Assembly (NCBI GenBank): GCA_009885535.1
Contig: VFKL01000078.1
Coordinates: forward strand, 1 to 45,141
Length of the DNA stretch: 45,141 nucleotides
Direction of reading: 5' to 3'
Origin: Chitinophagaceae bacterium
GTDB taxonomy: Bacteria; Bacteroidota; Bacteroidia; Chitinophagales; Chitinophagaceae
Position 1 is the first letter of the stretch; every line of letters starts with the position of its first letter. The position numbers were made by a program, and so were the translations under genes. The notes beneath the pieces are model-generated. The model had not been told where the DNA came from. It searched no databases and was given only the letters and a program-made list of their open reading frames with translations. This document shows, piece by piece, positions 34,283 through 44,534 of the stretch.

Positions 34283-35380
34283 TTAATAGTACTCTAACAA
34301 TACAATTTTCCCAAAATCGTTTAATATCCCTTCGTCCACAAATTCAATATCTCCACCACTTTCAATTACCTTTTCAATAATATCATCTACAGCGTCTTTG
34401 ATGAAAAAATTGCTGGTTAAAGAATTTTCCTTTTTATAAATCACTTCTTTATTAGCGCCATGTTCAGCAGGGAAATAAAAATTCTTTTCTACAATAAGCA
34501 AGCGACCTCGGTTTTGAACAGATGCTTTCCATACTTCATTAATGCCAACCGCTAATTTCTTTTTGCCATACGCATCATCAATCAAACCCATTAATCTTTT
34601 CTGATGAATGATTTTCCAATTTTTAATGTAGGGTTTCATTACCTCTTGAAATTCGAATTCTGATTTCTCTTCAAAATTTCCATGAATGTAATCAATTACA
34701 TGCTGCGTGTTATGGGTAATGGATTTAAATTGTCCGAGTGTTTTTGGTGTACCCATAACAAAAATAGGTAGCTTATAGGTTTTCAATAAAATAGACAACC
34801 CATTGTCAGTATGCATCAGAAATTTATTGATTAAAATTTCTTTTCGCTTTTTTTCGTCGCTAAAATTGGCCACGCTTTCGGAAATATCATTTTTATACGC
34901 ATCAATATTATCAGGCATGTTAGAGGTTATACGAATAAACTTAGTAGTATTTCCTAAATATATTTTTGTCCATTTATTGCTCAATACCACCAATAAATAT
35001 TTATGAATTTCTTTTTTACTATAAATCAAATCTCTGATTTCAAATGAATCGTCGATAATGATTTTTTCTTCAACAGGAATATCGAGGTAATAAATTTTTT
35101 CAATTAATGGAGATATGAAAATGGCTACAGATTTCTTATGTGTATTATAATTTAAACCATCTAATATTAGGTTCAGTTTATTTAAAACAGGCAAATACTT
35201 ATCTTCTGGATAATTCAATTCCAATTCTTTCTCCATTTTATTTTTAGCCATTTTAAGTTTATAATCCAACTCTTTCTTCAAACCGATTTTTGGCTCAAAT
35301 GGCATTATAATTGAAATACAAGGCAAATACTTTGGCGAATTTAATACTGCTTCAAAAGAATCTTTAAGTTGCGTTTCCAT
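34283..35380 (-). CDS. BaeRF3-like protein (bacterial archaeo-eukaryotic release factor-like family)
   Basis: CISIIMPFEPKIGLKKELDYKLKMAKNKME N-terminus, AVGINEVWKASVQNRGRLLIVEKNF; no GGQ motif seen. Confidence 0.72.
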   Translation of the reverse strand: METQLKDSFEAVLNSPKYLPCISIIMPFEPKIGLKKELDYKLKMAKNKMEKELELNYPEDKYLPVLNKLNLILDGLNYNTHKKSVAIFISPLIEKIYYLDIPVEEKIIIDDSFEIRDLIYSKKEIHKYLLVVLSNKWTKIYLGNTTKFIRITSNMPDNIDAYKNDISESVANFSDEKKRKEILINKFLMHTDNGLSILLKTYKLPIFVMGTPKTLGQFKSITHNTQHVIDYIHGNFEEKSEFEFQEVMKPYIKNWKIIHQKRLMGLIDDAYGKKKLAVGINEVWKASVQNRGRLLIVEKNFYFPAEHGANKEVIYKKENSLTSNFFIKDAVDDIIEKVIESGGDIEFVDEGILNDFGKIVLLEYY

Positions 35381-36536: not shown

Positions 36537-37049
36537 ATGCAAAATATCAATACACTACATCAGCTTTTAGAAGATGATATGAGAAAATTTATAGTAGCTG
36601 AAAAGACGCTACAGCATACTATTCCATTATGGATTAAACTCGTTAATTCAGTGAAATTGAAAACCATTCTTTTAAAATATTTCGATCAAATTAAAGACCA
36701 TGTAACACAAATGGATAAATATTTTGAATCCGAAGAATTACAATTTGTTTACAACAATCATAAAGTAATGTCAACATTGGTTTCAGATTCGGAAGAACGA
36801 ATATTGCGGTGTGAGGATTTTACAGTGAAAGATGCTTGTATATTATCCTGTATTCAAAACATCAATCACTATAAAATTGGTTGTTATGGAACAGCAGCTG
36901 CCTTTTCTAATGTATTGGGAAAGTCAAATATTGGCATGTTATTCCATCAATTTGAAGTCAATGAAAAACAAATCGATGATCGTTTAAGTCAATTGGCCGA
37001 ATACGAAATCAACAACCAAGCGATTATGCATTTGCCGTCAAATAAATAA
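36537..37049 (+). CDS. DUF892 (YciE/YciF-like) ferritin-like protein
   Basis: LHQLLEDDMRKFIVAEKTLQ; ACILSCIQNINHYKIGCYGTAAAFSNVLG. Confidence 0.8.
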   Translation: MQNINTLHQLLEDDMRKFIVAEKTLQHTIPLWIKLVNSVKLKTILLKYFDQIKDHVTQMDKYFESEELQFVYNNHKVMSTLVSDSEERILRCEDFTVKDACILSCIQNINHYKIGCYGTAAAFSNVLGKSNIGMLFHQFEVNEKQIDDRLSQLAEYEINNQAIMHLPSNK

Positions 37050-37154: not shown

Positions 37155-37829
37155 ATGAAGACAGACATTGAAATTCAAAAAGACGTAGTTGAACAATTGA
37201 AATGGGAACCATTTTTAAATGCAGCTCAAATTGGAGTTGCGGTTAAAGATGGCATTGTAACCTTATCTGGACAGGTGGATGCTTATTCAAAAAAAGTATT
37301 GGCTGAAAAAACAGTAAAAAAAGTTATTGGTGTTAAAGCAATTGCTGAAGACATTCAAGTTGGATTGTCGCCAGCATACAAAAAAACAGATACGGAAATC
37401 GCTGTAGCAGTTGTAAATGCAATTAAGTGGCATACCATGATTCCAGATGAAAAGATTAAAGTGAGTGTAGAAGATGGCAATGTAAAATTGGAAGGAGAAG
37501 TTGAATGGGAATACCAAAGAAATCAAGCAAAAACATCAGTAGAAAATCTAATTGGCGTTCGATTTGTAACTAACCTAGTTGCAGTAAAGCCAAAAATTAC
37601 TCCCTATGAATTACAATTAAAAATCAATGCAAGTTTTCAACGAAGTGCAAATATTGACGCTTCTAAAATCACAGCAGAAGTAATTGGAAGCAGGGTTATT
37701 TTAAGGGGAAAAGTGAGGTCGTTTGCAGAAAGAGAAGATGCTGAAAATGCAGTATGGTCTGCACCTGGAGTCATTATGGTAGAAAACAAACTGGTTATTG
37801 AAGAACCAGAATATGCATTCGAAGATTAA
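37155..37829 (+). CDS. Protein with three BON domains (OsmY-like)
   Basis: Three repeats with VKDGIVTLSGQV, VEDGNVKLEGEV, VIGSRVILRGKV cores. Confidence 0.92.
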   Translation: MKTDIEIQKDVVEQLKWEPFLNAAQIGVAVKDGIVTLSGQVDAYSKKVLAEKTVKKVIGVKAIAEDIQVGLSPAYKKTDTEIAVAVVNAIKWHTMIPDEKIKVSVEDGNVKLEGEVEWEYQRNQAKTSVENLIGVRFVTNLVAVKPKITPYELQLKINASFQRSANIDASKITAEVIGSRVILRGKVRSFAEREDAENAVWSAPGVIMVENKLVIEEPEYAFED

Positions 37830-37889: not shown

Positions 37890-38285
37890 TCAACCTTTTT
37901 TACGAAGCATTTCGTTTAAAAATTCATTACAATGAAACTTCACACTGATGTGATCTTGTTCCATTTTTTTAAATTCAAGTGTAATTTCTTTTTGTTTTTG
38001 TTCTATTGATTTAGTAACCATTTTATCCACCATTAAAATATCAAATTCCGTTAAAACCTTTTTCTGTTCGAAAATAATATTCCTTAAAACTTCAAATTTA
38101 TTTCTTGTGTTTTCTAATATAAGTTGATGTACGTCTGCTTTTGAGGCAATATCAACTATAGAATTTCTTTCAACAATTTCTTTCAATCTAAATGATAAAT
38201 TTGAAAGCTCGGTCATGTAAAATGAAATAGAATGTAACCAAGCATTAAGTTCATCATCATAAAAAGCAGTGATTTTTTTAGACAT
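37890..38285 (-). CDS. Hypothetical helical/coiled-coil protein
   Basis: 131 aa, predicted mostly helical; no recognised motif. Confidence 0.65.
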   Translation of the reverse strand: MSKKITAFYDDELNAWLHSISFYMTELSNLSFRLKEIVERNSIVDIASKADVHQLILENTRNKFEVLRNIIFEQKKVLTEFDILMVDKMVTKSIEQKQKEITLEFKKMEQDHISVKFHCNEFLNEMLRKKG

Positions 38286-38456: not shown

Positions 38457-38900
38457 ATGAAAAAAAGCGACCAAACTGCAGAAAAAAATAATGTTTATCC
38501 AGGCACTTTTGTTCGCCAAAATAATATGGATAAATTAAAGGATGAATTTTTAAAAGACAAAAACAAAATAACTAAAAAACCTCAGGTTAATTTAATTGAG
38601 TCGAATCATGCGATTTTAATAGAAATGGCCATACCTGGTGTAAAGCGTGAAGATTTTTTAATTGAAGTTAAAGATGATATACTTACCGTACACGTGTTGC
38701 ATGAAGACGCTAGTAAAGATTTCGTAGCATTTTCCATGCATGAATTTGATTGCAATAAATACAAGCGAAGCATACAGCTTCCACCAAATGCGGATTATGC
38801 ATTTGTGAGTGCAAAATATAATGATGGATTATTAACCATTTACATTCCAAAAACTAATGAACCTTTCATAAATCAACAAAATACAATTATCGTTTATTAA
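38457..38900 (+). CDS. Hsp20/alpha-crystallin small heat-shock protein
   Basis: NHAILIEMAIPGVKREDFLIEVKDDILTVHV; FKRSI-like YKRSIQLP; AKYNDGLLTIYIPK. Confidence 0.93.
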   Translation: MKKSDQTAEKNNVYPGTFVRQNNMDKLKDEFLKDKNKITKKPQVNLIESNHAILIEMAIPGVKREDFLIEVKDDILTVHVLHEDASKDFVAFSMHEFDCNKYKRSIQLPPNADYAFVSAKYNDGLLTIYIPKTNEPFINQQNTIIVY

Positions 38901-38909
38901 AATTGATCA

Positions 38910-40559
38910 ATGTCATTTACATTTTATCATGAATATACAATTGACGAAAAATTCAGAAAAAAAGTGGCGTATTTCTGTATGGAATTTGCATTAGATCAAC
39001 CATTAAAAACCTATGCTGGAGGCTTGGGATTTTTGGCAGGTTCTTTTATGAAAAGTGCATACGAACTAAATCAAAATATTGTAGGTATTGGAATATTATG
39101 GAAATATGGATACTACAATCAAACCAGAAAACAAGATCAAACAATGGATGTTTTGTTTGAAGAAAAAAAATACGGATTTTTGATAGACACCAAAATTAAA
39201 TTCAAAGTTACGGTTGCATGTAAAGAGGTTTGGGTTAACGCATTTTTTTTACCTTCTCATGTTTTTAAATCAGCACCAATTTTTTTCCTTTCAACAGATT
39301 TACCCGAAAATGATTATTTATCAAAAACAATTTGTCATAAATTATACGATTCAAATCCTGAAACATCAATAGCGGCATCTATTTTACTTGGCGCTGGCGG
39401 GTCTAAACTTTTGAGTTTGATAAACTGGGAACCAGAAATTTACCATATGAACGAATCCCATGCGCTCCCAATTGGATTTTACCTGCTAAATAAATTCAAA
39501 GAAATCAACCTTGTAAAAGAAAAGTTAGTTTATACAAATCACACCGCTGAAGAAGGTGCAAATAAAATTTCGAGTATTGCACTACTTGAAAAAATGAGTT
39601 ATTTCTGTGGACTCTCAACTGATTTTATAAAATCTAATTTTTCAAACGACAAAAGCAATTTAAACCATACTTATGTTGCATTGATGCTTTCTGGAAAAGC
39701 AAATGCCGTATCTGAATTACACAAAAATAAGTTGTTGACCATTTGGGAAAAGTACAACAATATTTGTCCAATACATGCCATAACGAATGCGCAAAATTTT
39801 AAATTTTGGCAAAAAGAATGCCTGTATAAAACAATTGAAAAAAATGATATCAATCAATTTGAAATTGAAAAGAAAAAATGCAAAAAAGAACTTTTTGAAA
39901 TCGTAGCAGATCAATGTGGCGAAATTTATGATGAAAATATTTGCACATTGGTTTTTGCTAAAAGATTTGCAGCTTATAAACGTCCCGATTTACTATTGTA
40001 TGATATAGATCGATTTTTAAAATTGATCACAAATTCAAAATATCCAGTACAAATCATTTGGGCTGGAAAACCTTATCCTATGGATTATTTTGGAATTGGC
40101 GTATTTGATAAAATTGTAAACGTTTGTAAATCACACAACAATTGCGCTATCCTTGTTGGCTATGAAATTAGTTTGTCGAAAAGCTTAAAATCAGGTTCAG
40201 ACATTTGGCTAAATACCCCTCGAATTGGGCATGAAGCATCCGGTACAAGTGGAATGTCGGCATCTATGAATGGCGCTATTAATGTTGGAATTCAAGATGG
40301 CTGGTTTCCTGAATTTGCAAAAAATGAAGAAAATAGTTTTGTAATTAAGGCTTGTGAAAATAGTTTGCAAGATATTTTGCAGGATGAAAAAGATGCAGAA
40401 AATCTGTATACAATTTTAGAAAATGAAGCGATTCCGTTGTATTACGAAAATCGAGAAAAATGGTTTGAGATAACAAAAAAAAGCATGCTTAATATCATAC
40501 CCAACTTTGATAGCAACAGAATGGCAATAGAATATTACGAGACATTATATTCAAAATAA
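38910..40559 (+). CDS. Glycogen/alpha-glucan phosphorylase-like protein (GT35-like) with Ser at the expected PLP-Lys position
   Basis: KVAYFCMEFALDQPLKTYAGGLGFLAGSFMKSAYEL; FAKRFAAYKRPDLLL; EASGTSGMSASMNGAINVGIQDGW. Confidence 0.88.
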   Translation: MSFTFYHEYTIDEKFRKKVAYFCMEFALDQPLKTYAGGLGFLAGSFMKSAYELNQNIVGIGILWKYGYYNQTRKQDQTMDVLFEEKKYGFLIDTKIKFKVTVACKEVWVNAFFLPSHVFKSAPIFFLSTDLPENDYLSKTICHKLYDSNPETSIAASILLGAGGSKLLSLINWEPEIYHMNESHALPIGFYLLNKFKEINLVKEKLVYTNHTAEEGANKISSIALLEKMSYFCGLSTDFIKSNFSNDKSNLNHTYVALMLSGKANAVSELHKNKLLTIWEKYNNICPIHAITNAQNFKFWQKECLYKTIEKNDINQFEIEKKKCKKELFEIVADQCGEIYDENICTLVFAKRFAAYKRPDLLLYDIDRFLKLITNSKYPVQIIWAGKPYPMDYFGIGVFDKIVNVCKSHNNCAILVGYEISLSKSLKSGSDIWLNTPRIGHEASGTSGMSASMNGAINVGIQDGWFPEFAKNEENSFVIKACENSLQDILQDEKDAENLYTILENEAIPLYYENREKWFEITKKSMLNIIPNFDSNRMAIEYYETLYSK

Positions 40560-41732
40560 ATGAAAAAGAATGCTCCATTTGCACCAACGAAATTAAATAC
40601 TGCGAAATTAATTAATGGAGGGAAAATGTATTTTGATACAGTAATAGATTTAATTCGAAATGCTAAGTCAATCATTTTTTTACAAACGTATATCTTAAAA
40701 GATGACGAAACGGGAAAAATGATTGCAGACGAATTAAAATGTGCTGCCAAAAGAAATGTAAATGTTTATATTTTACTAGATGGTTTCGCCTCTGGTAATT
40801 TGCAGCAATCATTTATTAACGATCTAACATCAGCAGGAATTGAGTTGCTATTTTTCAAACCTATTTTTAAAAATAATCATATTTATTTTAGTAGACGATT
40901 GCACCATAAAATTATAGTTGTAGATGGAAAATTTACATTAATTGGCGGGTTGAATATTGCAAACAGATATAACGAAATCAACAATCTTAAAGCCTGGCTT
41001 GATTTTGCAGTGCTAATTGAAGGAGAGTCATCATTTCAAGTAGAAAACTATTGTAATCAAGTAAGATTAAAAACAACCAACAAAAAAGATGAAATCAAAA
41101 CAAACGTTGAATTTGATTTCAATGATATCCCATTAGAAGATCAATGCACCATTAAAATCAGAAGAAACGATTGGCTAATGCATTTGAATGAAATATCATC
41201 AAATTACATTGAATTATTACGCAATTCGAAAAATGAGATTTTGATACTTTGTAGTTATTTTATTCCTGGAAATGTTTTAAGAAGATCTATGGCTAACGCA
41301 TCAAGAAGAGGTGTAAAAATAACTGTAATTACTGCAAGTCAATCTGATGTGCCTTTAACTAAACCTGCTGAAAGATGGCTTTACGATTGGTTGTTAAGAA
41401 ATAACATAAAAATTTATGAGTATCAAAATAATGTGCTTCACGGTAAGTTAGCAGTTAGTGATCAAACGGCGGTTACTATTGGATCTTACAATATTAATAA
41501 TTTAAGCACGTATGTTTGTTTGGAGTTAAATGCAGAAATAATAAATGTATCATTTGCTAAAAATGTACAAAATACTTTGCAAAATATTATAGAGAAAGAA
41601 TGCATTGAAGTGAGTTCAATTTCTCATCATCACCAAAAAAATATGTTGAATCAATTTTTCAGATGGTGTAGTTATCAAACGTTAAGATTTGTGTTATTGA
41701 TATTCACATTCAATTTAAAGCGTGAAAATTAG
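40560..41732 (+). CDS. Phospholipase D-like / cardiolipin synthase-like protein
   Basis: Two intact HKD motifs: HHKIIVVDGKFTLIGGLN and HGKLAVSDQTAVTIGSYN; ATG directly abuts the upstream TAA. Confidence 0.92.
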   Translation: MKKNAPFAPTKLNTAKLINGGKMYFDTVIDLIRNAKSIIFLQTYILKDDETGKMIADELKCAAKRNVNVYILLDGFASGNLQQSFINDLTSAGIELLFFKPIFKNNHIYFSRRLHHKIIVVDGKFTLIGGLNIANRYNEINNLKAWLDFAVLIEGESSFQVENYCNQVRLKTTNKKDEIKTNVEFDFNDIPLEDQCTIKIRRNDWLMHLNEISSNYIELLRNSKNEILILCSYFIPGNVLRRSMANASRRGVKITVITASQSDVPLTKPAERWLYDWLLRNNIKIYEYQNNVLHGKLAVSDQTAVTIGSYNINNLSTYVCLELNAEIINVSFAKNVQNTLQNIIEKECIEVSSISHHHQKNMLNQFFRWCSYQTLRFVLLIFTFNLKREN

Positions 41733-42739
41733 TTACCCAATATTCTATTAAAAAAGAAAATAGTTTCATTTAAATTCCATGATTGAAAACGTCCACGTTG
41801 AACAACTAATTTATTTTCATCTGGATGTTGAATGAAATAATGAAACACAAAATCGCTACTGGGATTACGCCAACCTAAAACCTGACCAAATCTCAAATCA
41901 TTAAATATTAAGGTGTTATTTAATTTTTTTATGGTGTAAAAATTTTCGGAGAATCTAATTAATTTTTGTAGAGCTTCATAATTATCAACGCTATCAATAT
42001 AAAATGAGTTTTGTTCAAATCGAGAAAAATGAATTGAATCCGAATGGTCTAAAATGGAATAGTAGCCAATATCAAAAGCATTCTTTTTTTTCACAACGAT
42101 ATACCAAAGGAAATTTTGAAATGGGGCTGGAGTAGTGAAATATGAAATAGATTTTTCTGAAGAATATGTCATGGATTTTTCTACTTTATAATCAACAACC
42201 AATTTATTAAATATGCCAAACAAAACATACAACATGGGCGTAAATAATCCTAATTTCCACCAACGACTTCTGTGTAAATGATATGCATTCAAATAAATTA
42301 AGAACGCAAAAGAAACCAAAGGCATTATGGAGAAAAAAGGATCTGCTACATAAATAATATTGAATGAAAAGCGTTTGTGGCTAAAGGGTTCAAGCCAACC
42401 AATGCCATAATTATTAAAAGAATCTAATAATAAATGAATTGAAATTTCAACTAAAAAGAAAACAATCCATTTGGAAAATCTAATATTATGCGGTTGATGT
42501 ACTTTATCTGCAATTAATGCAAAAATGGGAACCAATAACATCATAAAAAAAATGGAATGCGTAAAGCCTCGATGTGCAAGCAATGCGGATGGAACATCCA
42601 TCCATAAGTTGGCAATAAAATCAATATCAGGAATACTTTGCGCTAGTGCACCCCAAAACATTGCTTTTTTTCCAAACCCTTTTTCAAAAAATGCTTCACC
42701 TACACAAGCACCCAATGCAATATGTGTGAATGAATCCAT
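41729..42739 (-). CDS. YdjM-like membrane-bound metal-dependent hydrolase (DUF457)
   Basis: DSFTHIALGACVGEAFF, IPDIDFI, HRGFTHSIFF, HLLLDSFNNYG; several TM segments. Confidence 0.9.
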   Translation of the reverse strand: MDSFTHIALGACVGEAFFEKGFGKKAMFWGALAQSIPDIDFIANLWMDVPSALLAHRGFTHSIFFMMLLVPIFALIADKVHQPHNIRFSKWIVFFLVEISIHLLLDSFNNYGIGWLEPFSHKRFSFNIIYVADPFFSIMPLVSFAFLIYLNAYHLHRSRWWKLGLFTPMLYVLFGIFNKLVVDYKVEKSMTYSSEKSISYFTTPAPFQNFLWYIVVKKKNAFDIGYYSILDHSDSIHFSRFEQNSFYIDSVDNYEALQKLIRFSENFYTIKKLNNTLIFNDLRFGQVLGWRNPSSDFVFHYFIQHPDENKLVVQRGRFQSWNLNETIFFFNRILGN

Positions 42740-42755
42740 TTTTAAATTTTATTTA

Positions 42756-43595
42756 TTACTTGTTGTGTGCAATAAACAATGGCATTTCAAATGCATTAAC
42801 CAACGCATCTGCCATACTAGATTTGAACCATCTCGATATCATAGATCTTCTGTAAGCACCAATTACAGTAACAAAACTTAATGGTTCTTTCTGAAGATGG
42901 TTTATAATTTCAACTTCTGATATCCCTTTTAAAACGGTAAAACTAATATTTGAAAAATGTCTTTTCATTAATTCTTTGAGCAGTTTATTTTCGGGGAGAT
43001 GTGAATTTTCATCCATCGGTTTTATAGAAATCACTTCAACAGGCATGTTGATGTGTGGCGACATTAAGTACGCAAACATTTTTAAAGCATACACTGAATT
43101 AGATTTCCCATCAAACAAAAAAATTACTTTTTGAAATTCCTTAAATGTATCGGGAGTTAAAAAAACAGGACACTGCGAATTGCTTAAAACATCTTGCAAA
43201 AATCGACTGGGATATTTTTCTTCATGATGATTAAATGAAGTACCCTTGCTTAAAATTAATAAATCTGCAAAAATGCTTTCGTGCAATAATTCCGAAATGG
43301 CAGTTTTTTCATCATGATGAATATTAAAAGCTAATTTATTTGCTGCACCACGTTTATAAAACTCATTAGCTGATGTTCTTCTTTTATTGTTGTCATCTTC
43401 TTTTAAATTATGTAATTTTTTTTCTGAAACACCTTGATCAAAAACCAAATCGTAAATCTTATAACTGGTATACGATTTATCATCCAAAAAAACACCCGTC
43501 AAATGTGATTTTAATAATTTAGATAAATAAATAGCATAATCAGAAGTGGTATCAATAGATTTCAATCCATCAAAGGCAGCGATGATTTTATTCAT
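42756..43595 (-). CDS. Universal stress protein family, tandem Usp domains
   Basis: KIIAAFDGLKSIDTTSDYAIYLSKLLKSHLTGVFLDD; ADLLILSKGTSF; CPVFLTPD; VTVIGAYRRSMISRWFKSS. Confidence 0.88.
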   Translation of the reverse strand: MNKIIAAFDGLKSIDTTSDYAIYLSKLLKSHLTGVFLDDKSYTSYKIYDLVFDQGVSEKKLHNLKEDDNNKRRTSANEFYKRGAANKLAFNIHHDEKTAISELLHESIFADLLILSKGTSFNHHEEKYPSRFLQDVLSNSQCPVFLTPDTFKEFQKVIFLFDGKSNSVYALKMFAYLMSPHINMPVEVISIKPMDENSHLPENKLLKELMKRHFSNISFTVLKGISEVEIINHLQKEPLSFVTVIGAYRRSMISRWFKSSMADALVNAFEMPLFIAHNK

Positions 43596-43607
43596 AAACG
43601 TATCAAT

Positions 43608-44432
43608 TTATTTATGGCAGATAAAAATCGGAAGCTGATGTTCGCTAATGACTTCCATCAAAAAACTTTTTTTAAAAAATTGAGAGAAAGAAGTTCTTCC
43701 AAATGATCCAGCGATTAATATGGATGATTTTCTATCTGCAATCCATGTTGAAAAATATTTCCTAGAATCAATATCTAATTTTGATACGGTTAAATCTGTA
43801 AAATGCCGAGATACCAATTCTTCAATATATTTTTCATTGGGTATAAGCGAATTTTCATCTTGATTGGCATAGGTTAATAATGTAGGATTTTTGGCCAATT
43901 CTGGCAATAAATAAACAAACTGTTTTATTGCAAATACGGAGGATTCGCTTCCATCATAAGCAATAATATTTATTGAAGGGAAGGTGTATTTTTCAGGAAC
44001 TACAATAACCGGACACTCTATATTTTGCAAGGTTTCTTTTAAATAATTATTGGGGTTTCCAGAACCCATATTTTCATAAAACTTTTCCTCTCCAATGATT
44101 AATAAATCCGCAAACCTTGATTCTTTTTTTAATTCGGGTAATGCCAAATCGTTTAAGTCTTTATGTGTGCGATATTCAATATGATTTTTCACACAAAGTG
44201 CTTCAAATTTTTTTACATTTTTTTCAATCACTTCCATATCATCATCTTCTAATAATGGCAAAAAATTAGGTGTACTCATTCCATCGGCATAACTCCACAA
44301 ATTGGCATAACTAATTTGAGGCAAAAACACGCCAGTTAACAATATCGGATTCAATGCATTTAATTTATTTACAAAATCAAACGCTGCATCGGAAAAATGT
44401 ATTCCATCAAAAGCAAGTAGTATTTTTTTCAT
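43608..44432 (-). CDS. Universal stress protein family, tandem Usp domains (likely start 44432; ORF opens at 44477)
   Basis: MKKILLAFDGIHFSDAAFDF; ADLLIIGEEKF; CPVIVVPEKY; ILIAGSFGRTSFSQFFKKSF. Confidence 0.9.
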   Translation of the reverse strand: MKKILLAFDGIHFSDAAFDFVNKLNALNPILLTGVFLPQISYANLWSYADGMSTPNFLPLLEDDDMEVIEKNVKKFEALCVKNHIEYRTHKDLNDLALPELKKESRFADLLIIGEEKFYENMGSGNPNNYLKETLQNIECPVIVVPEKYTFPSINIIAYDGSESSVFAIKQFVYLLPELAKNPTLLTYANQDENSLIPNEKYIEELVSRHFTDLTVSKLDIDSRKYFSTWIADRKSSILIAGSFGRTSFSQFFKKSFLMEVISEHQLPIFICHK

Positions 44433-44534
44433 ATTATTTAGTTTTGACAAACATAGGAAGGCAATACATTGTATCAAATAATTTGAATCAAGTTGTTAGT
44501 TGACCTGAGTCATATAATACATAAAACCACTACC

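Follow-up and report, generated by a model that had tools for sequence, protein, structure and literature searches.

A Bacteroidota subfamily of GT35-fold proteins with the PLP-binding lysine replaced, represented in a Chitinophagaceae stress island

The stretch of DNA analysed here (the window; 45,141 nt of contig VFKL01000078.1 from a Chitinophagaceae bacterium) contains a series of stress-related genes surrounding an open reading frame that encodes a GT35-fold protein without the lysine that binds PLP in phosphorylases. The genes concerned are given below, where clade A denotes the branch to which the window copy belongs (see below) and signed numbers are gene positions relative to the GT35 gene.

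36537..37049 (+), DUF892 (YciF-type) stress protein (PF05974, E 1.1e-19), conserved in clade A loci
37155..37829 (+), three-BON-domain (OsmY-like) protein (PF04972, E 2.7e-39), at -3 in six loci
37890..38285 (-), 131-aa protein matching no Pfam family, divergent from hsp20 (cluster 18, seven clade A loci)
38457..38900 (+), hsp20 small heat-shock protein (PF00011, E 4.2e-17), 9 bp upstream of the GT35 gene and at -1 in eight clade A loci
38910..40559 (+), GT35-fold protein without the PLP lysine, 549 aa (TIGR02094, PF00343, AF2 model, PDB match 9l6i)
40560..41732 (+), PLD-superfamily, ClsB/cardiolipin-synthase-like protein (PF13091, E 5.1e-39; PRK11263, 257 bits against a cut-off of 281), at +1 in nine clade A loci
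41729..42739 (-), YdjM-like membrane protein (PF04307), at +2 in nine clade A loci
42756..43595 (-), universal-stress-protein-like by eye, without a family match at E 1e-3, at +3/+4 in eight clade A loci
43608..44477 (-), second universal-stress-protein-like protein, named by eye (clade A locus comparison)

The hsp20, GT35 and PLD genes are packed as a probable operon, the PLD start codon directly following the GT35 stop codon (0 bp), and hsp20 is probably co-transcribed with the GT35 gene. The same set of genes (DUF892, BON, 131-aa, hsp20, GT35, PLD, YdjM and two UspA-like proteins) constitutes the clade A island of Chitinophagaceae, to which relatives sometimes add PfkB, or a D-2-hydroxyacid dehydrogenase together with MlaE, downstream; the Mucilaginibacter clade A copy (L044) is located outside the stress island. 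A gene for a baeRF_family3 (archaeo-eukaryotic release-factor-like) protein at 34283-35380 (-) lies at the edge of the island and is conserved in several clade A loci. The search for an orthologous Lys-less clade near hsp20 that an earlier note on this DNA had proposed recovered clade A, with hsp20 and PLD at the positions listed above. The suggestion in that note of a protein repurposed in a stress operon holds for the window subclade, in which the hsp20-GT35-PLD island is conserved, and does not extend to the subfamily, whose members are found mostly outside stress islands.

The 549-aa product, the translation of which contains NTPRIGHEASGTSGMSASMNGAINVGIQDGW, reaches 390.7 bits against the "alpha-glucan family phosphorylase" model TIGR02094 (cut-off 191.7) and 71.2 bits against PF00343 (cut-off 27), and scores far below the cut-offs of both the classical phosphorylase model TIGR02093 (55.7 bits; cut-off 552.9) and the GlgA model TIGR02095 (45.8 bits; cut-off 328.45), which places it outside GT5. 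Its AlphaFold (AF2) model (pLDDT 91.1, pTM 0.91) is closest in the PDB to the glycogen phosphorylase of Segatella copri (9l6i; E 2.6e-44, TM 0.88 on the query, 26% identity), and the best 50 PDB matches are glucan phosphorylases throughout, as befits a GT-B glycogen-phosphorylase fold. The GT5-type N-terminal K-x-GGL motif is absent from the protein, which has TYAGGLGFL where the GlgA of its own genome has KAGGLADV. Three short segments are central to what follows.

39018..39044 (+), GGLGFLAGS loop, residues 37-45 (position 45 always S in the Lys-less clade and always D in Lys-bearing TIGR02094 proteins)
39954..39983 (+), FAKRFAAYKR, residues 349-358 (phosphate-binding K351, R352, Y356 and K357 kept)
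40233..40259 (+), EASGTSGMS motif, residues 442-450 (tcg codon at 40257-40259, Ser at the GT35 PLP-lysine column)

Alignment with Lys-bearing GT35 proteins, Escherichia coli GlgP and Erwinia MalP places Ser 450 at the PLP-lysine column (K680 of the rabbit enzyme, K646 of E. coli MalP). The Schiff-base lysine of the EASGTxxMK motif that defines PLP-dependent GT35 phosphorylases is thus missing from the window protein, as the earlier note had read from the codons, and the column is occupied by T, S or A throughout the subfamily. No replacement lysine is present near column 450, residues 447-453 being S-G-M-S-A-S-M. The window protein is therefore GT35 by fold and profile and lacks the defining feature of the PLP phosphorylases. 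The serine is not a sequencing error or chance occurrence, since the column is T, S or A in all readable homologues from independent Bacteroidota assemblies and the DNA motif is present in 40 of the 398 genomes searched. Nothing was found in favour of an assembly error or a decaying pseudogene, and either is extremely improbable, given the agreement of ∼80 distinct loci and the 40 genomes, in nearly all of which the reading frame is open, and a dN/dS of ∼0.08. The expectation that this is no simple decay was borne out by the same evidence, and the remaining core was likewise found intact as predicted, with YAGGLGFLAG (residues 35-44) and FAKRFAAYKR present and the glucose- and phosphate-site residues kept.

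Among known systems, the short (∼560 aa) Lys-bearing TIGR02094 proteins encoded on Simkania, Pseudorhizobium, Methylophaga and Chroococcidiopsis plasmids resemble the window protein in length, fold family and glucose- and phosphate-site residues, are also annotated glgP and sometimes share neighbours (type II GAPDH, DUF1622); they differ in retaining EASGTSGMK and AGD, are only ∼30% identical to it and form a clearly separate branch. The Segatella enzyme (9l6i / 20yr), although the closest solved structure, is 852 aa in length with an N-terminal extension and carries the PLP lysine in EASGTSGEK. Classical glycogen and maltodextrin phosphorylases (GT35, TIGR02093) have the GT-B catalytic core and invariant active-site residues in common with the window protein, but are ∼800-815 aa and possess the PLP lysine. 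GlgA glycogen synthase (GT5, TIGR02095) shares the GT-B fold and the Glu of the EASGT/EPCGL motif, with a weak sequence match; it differs in its N-terminal loop and C-terminal motif and is encoded by a separate gene in the same genome.

The window protein does not stand alone. A second copy in the same genome (49% identical; motif EASGTSGMT) has T at the PLP-lysine column, and Bacteroidota homologues drawn from genome contigs and from genomes of relatives (∼80 distinct loci, 45-86% identity) show T, S or A there wherever the motif is readable; that of L042 was not read. The same-genome paralogue and the phylum-wide clade rule out a lone aberrant stress-operon protein. Two types can be distinguished, clade A (the window type), with S or A at the column and FAKRF, and clade B, with mostly T and WARRF, which is present in most sampled genomes of the window's genus. 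All Lys-less proteins form one clade with a long stem and a support of 100/100 (100/97 in further trees), and thus constitute a monophyletic, strongly conserved GT35-fold subfamily in which Thr, Ser or Ala stands in place of the Schiff-base lysine. In Chlamydiota, Cyanobacteria and Proteobacteria, short relatives of about the same length carry EASGTSGMK, and the lysine is also kept in the best 30 TIGR02094 matches among the Bacteroidota loci. Lys-less proteins were found in Bacteroidota only, the scope beyond this phylum being a plasmid collection and a genome-contig scan for close relatives. No description of the group was found in the open literature, a search that left most subscription journals outside its reach. 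A glgP annotation on the Pseudomonas fluorescens plasmid pZL222 (L129, 334-2742) matched the motif expression with EAIGTEWKKEPIK, which may represent a spurious match or a disrupted site.

Residues H179, N181, H184, H211, N293, W300, R352, Y356, K357, R358, Y418, E442, G445 and T446 do not vary in any GT35 row of the alignment, those of E. coli GlgP and Erwinia MalP included. Among them are the glucose -1 subsite residues H211, N293, Y356, E442 and G445, which correspond to H377, N484, Y573, E672 and G675 of rabbit phosphorylase. The basic residues K351 (R in most of clade B), R352 and K357 are also present; their rabbit counterparts K568, R569 and K574 bind the phosphates of PLP and of the substrate. 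The roles of both sets are drawn partly from a review (PMC11046441). Twelve residues that never vary among Lys-bearing TIGR02094 proteins (D45, Q79, W112, D128, G148, E157, G183, F221, W318, K450, W466 and W477) have not been kept in the Lys-less ones. At 26 columns the Lys-less clade is fixed for a residue seldom found elsewhere, for example S45, E214, P388, Y389, E419 and K427; the shift therefore exceeds loss of the cofactor anchor. The genes are under strong purifying selection (dN 0.06-0.08, dS 0.75-0.93, dN/dS ∼0.08 for three clade A genes). Lys-less proteins score lower than their Lys-bearing relatives against TIGR02093 (U test, p 0.0002; n=10 each) and slightly higher against TIGR02095 (p 0.04; n=10 each), the latter model giving no match for 2 of the 10 Lys-less proteins.

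A DNA-pattern search of 398 Bacteroidota genomes detected the Lys-less motif in 40, the Lys motif in 221 and both in none, against an overlap of 22 genomes expected under independence; the distribution follows lineages and hence does not constitute an independent test. No classical phosphorylase scored above cut-off in any of the 40 Lys-less genomes, which, in combination with the lack of a Lys-type motif, makes the Lys-less protein their sole GT35. Direct search gave the same result for the window's own genome, whose only GT35 type is Lys-less. Profile matches to GlgC were obtained in 28 of the 40 (26 above cut-off, 2 just under it) and to GlgB, above cut-off, in 33. In the window's own genome, a 92% complete draft, the GlgA and GlgC genes are adjacent and GlgB was not found. 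Several GlgC-less genomes encode GlgB within a TreS-maltokinase operon, with a GlgE gene recognised by eye, and GlgB without GlgC alone therefore does not indicate that the Lys-less protein is a glucan synthase. The window's genome also encodes a stand-alone GT5 N-terminal domain (C181, L182 4308-5117; 270 aa, PF08323) without the C-terminal half, adjoining a panC-looking gene.

The neighbourhoods of other copies are varied. Clade B genes lie mostly beside an NRAMP-like transporter and a DtxR-like regulator (both named by eye), and no glycogen genes were seen among the clade B neighbours examined, which give no clue to function. At L049, glgB stands directly between a maltokinase fragment and the Lys-less gene. 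The Lys-less gene of a Pontibacter plasmid adjoins type II GAPDH and DUF1622 genes; Lys-bearing GT35 genes have type II GAPDH alongside in Pseudorhizobium and Indioceanicola and DUF1622 in Methylophaga. On Pontibacter plasmids and those of several Proteobacteria (L117, L119, L121 and L123), short GT35 genes recur near type II GAPDH, DUF1622 or CBS-domain genes, and may together with them form a mobile alpha-glucan/glycolysis stress module. In Runella, the gene immediately downstream of the Lys-less one is annotated as pyridoxamine 5'-phosphate oxidase family (L116, 7642-8082); the gene in the same position in another genome (G333; L188, 9600-10037) gives a weak TIGR04023 match, and this arrangement is possibly coincidence.

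In phosphorylases the chemistry is performed by the phosphate of PLP and not by its aldehyde. The replaced lysine lies 8 residues past a conserved Glu, the position of the second Glu of the E-x7-E motif, which contacts the nucleotide ribose in NDP-sugar GT-B enzymes; in the alignment, the K680 column is E in GT3 and Y in GT5. It has been proposed that PLP in GT35 may replace the nucleoside monophosphate of an NDP-sugar-dependent ancestor (PMC11046441). Our leading reading, held at somewhat less than even confidence, is that Lys-less GT35 proteins are active NDP-sugar-dependent retaining alpha-glucosyltransferases without covalent PLP. With the lysine lost and the phosphate clamp retained, a nucleotide diphosphate sugar would have space to bind. 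The site of the PLP 5'-phosphate could be filled by the donor's distal phosphate, and NDP-glucose would pass its glucose to an acceptor that is either an alpha-glucan or a small glucoside; the window copy would then be the stress-island version of this predicted enzyme. We count in favour of this reading the T, S or A at the lysine column of every motif read, the support for the Lys-less clade, its dN/dS and invariant active site, the 12 and 26 shifted columns, the TIGR02093 and TIGR02095 score shifts, the K680 column in GT3 and GT5, the review proposal (PMC11046441) and the gene order at L049. Against it, GlgC in 28 of the 40 host genomes and GlgA in the window's own indicate that an NDP-glucose glucan synthase is already present, the status of sole GT35, never alongside the Lys type, fits replacement of a phosphorylase, and the shift towards the GT5 model is small, with two proteins giving no match at all.

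The PLP-independent glycosyltransferase envisaged in the earlier note remains the leading reading, but a phosphorylase that is free of PLP or binds it loosely has almost the same likelihood. Such a protein would be the glycogen/maltodextrin phosphorylase of these Bacteroidota, with PLP bound otherwise than as a Schiff base or with the PLP-phosphate site occupied by another anion. The aldehyde-lysine bond is itself not the catalytic group in phosphorylases, the residues of the phosphate site are kept, and the protein is the sole GT35 in all 40 Lys-less genomes, most of which have alpha-glucan genes; type II GAPDH and DUF1622 neighbours are common to Pontibacter Lys-less and Lys-bearing genes, and PfkB or D-2-hydroxyacid dehydrogenase also occur in clade A islands. 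However, the lysine is kept by nearly all Lys-bearing relatives sampled and 12 fixed positions have changed, beyond what loss of the anchor needs. The mutually exclusive distribution of the two types is weak evidence of a functional swap, because it follows lineages. Retention of covalent PLP through another lysine reaching the pocket is very unlikely: by alignment K427 is newly invariant in Lys-less proteins and V, T or I in Lys-bearing ones, but it sits on helix 420-429, nine residues beyond Y418, and the sequence around 450 contains no lysine. A catalytically dead GT35 that regulates or scaffolds by binding alpha-glucan or a metabolite would accord with the missing cofactor anchor and with the position of the window copy beside hsp20 in a stress island, but the -1 subsite and phosphate-binding set are invariant, dN/dS is ∼0.08 and one conserved copy is present in most sampled genomes of the window's genus. 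The pseudoenzyme or sugar-binding sensor that had also been suggested is accordingly unlikely, since strong purifying selection preserves the residues of the glucose and phosphate sites. The sugar chemistry of the Lys-less proteins probably differs from that of every characterised relative.

Absence of the lysine may be either ancestral or derived. In the best tree rooted with GT3 and GT5, all Lys-bearing GT35 proteins form one clade with the Lys-less proteins outside (56/28), the nested alternative being only 0.65 log units worse and not rejected (p-AU 0.35); with a GT5-only root the preference is reversed without significance (p-AU 0.31), and GT3-only rooting was discarded because the alignment misplaced the motif. 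It is improbable that the Lys-less clade represents a living "proto-GT35" lying outside all PLP-bearing GT35 proteins, with a nucleotide-sugar-using state that predates PLP recruitment, and the fact that sampling met the clade in Bacteroidota alone speaks for a later loss of the lysine.

Glycogen phosphorylase is the textbook example of an enzyme that uses PLP for its phosphate, and the Lys-less branch bears on the still open question of how PLP was recruited to a fold of nucleotide-sugar glycosyltransferases. As the sole GT35 of many Bacteroidota that make alpha-glucan, this natural and conserved branch allows one to test directly whether the fold works without covalent PLP or has switched donor. 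Furthermore, Runella and Pontibacter plasmid records label Lys-less proteins glgP, and Bacteroidota "alpha-glucan family phosphorylase / glgP" records may be mis-annotated, which would affect models of glycogen metabolism in these bacteria.
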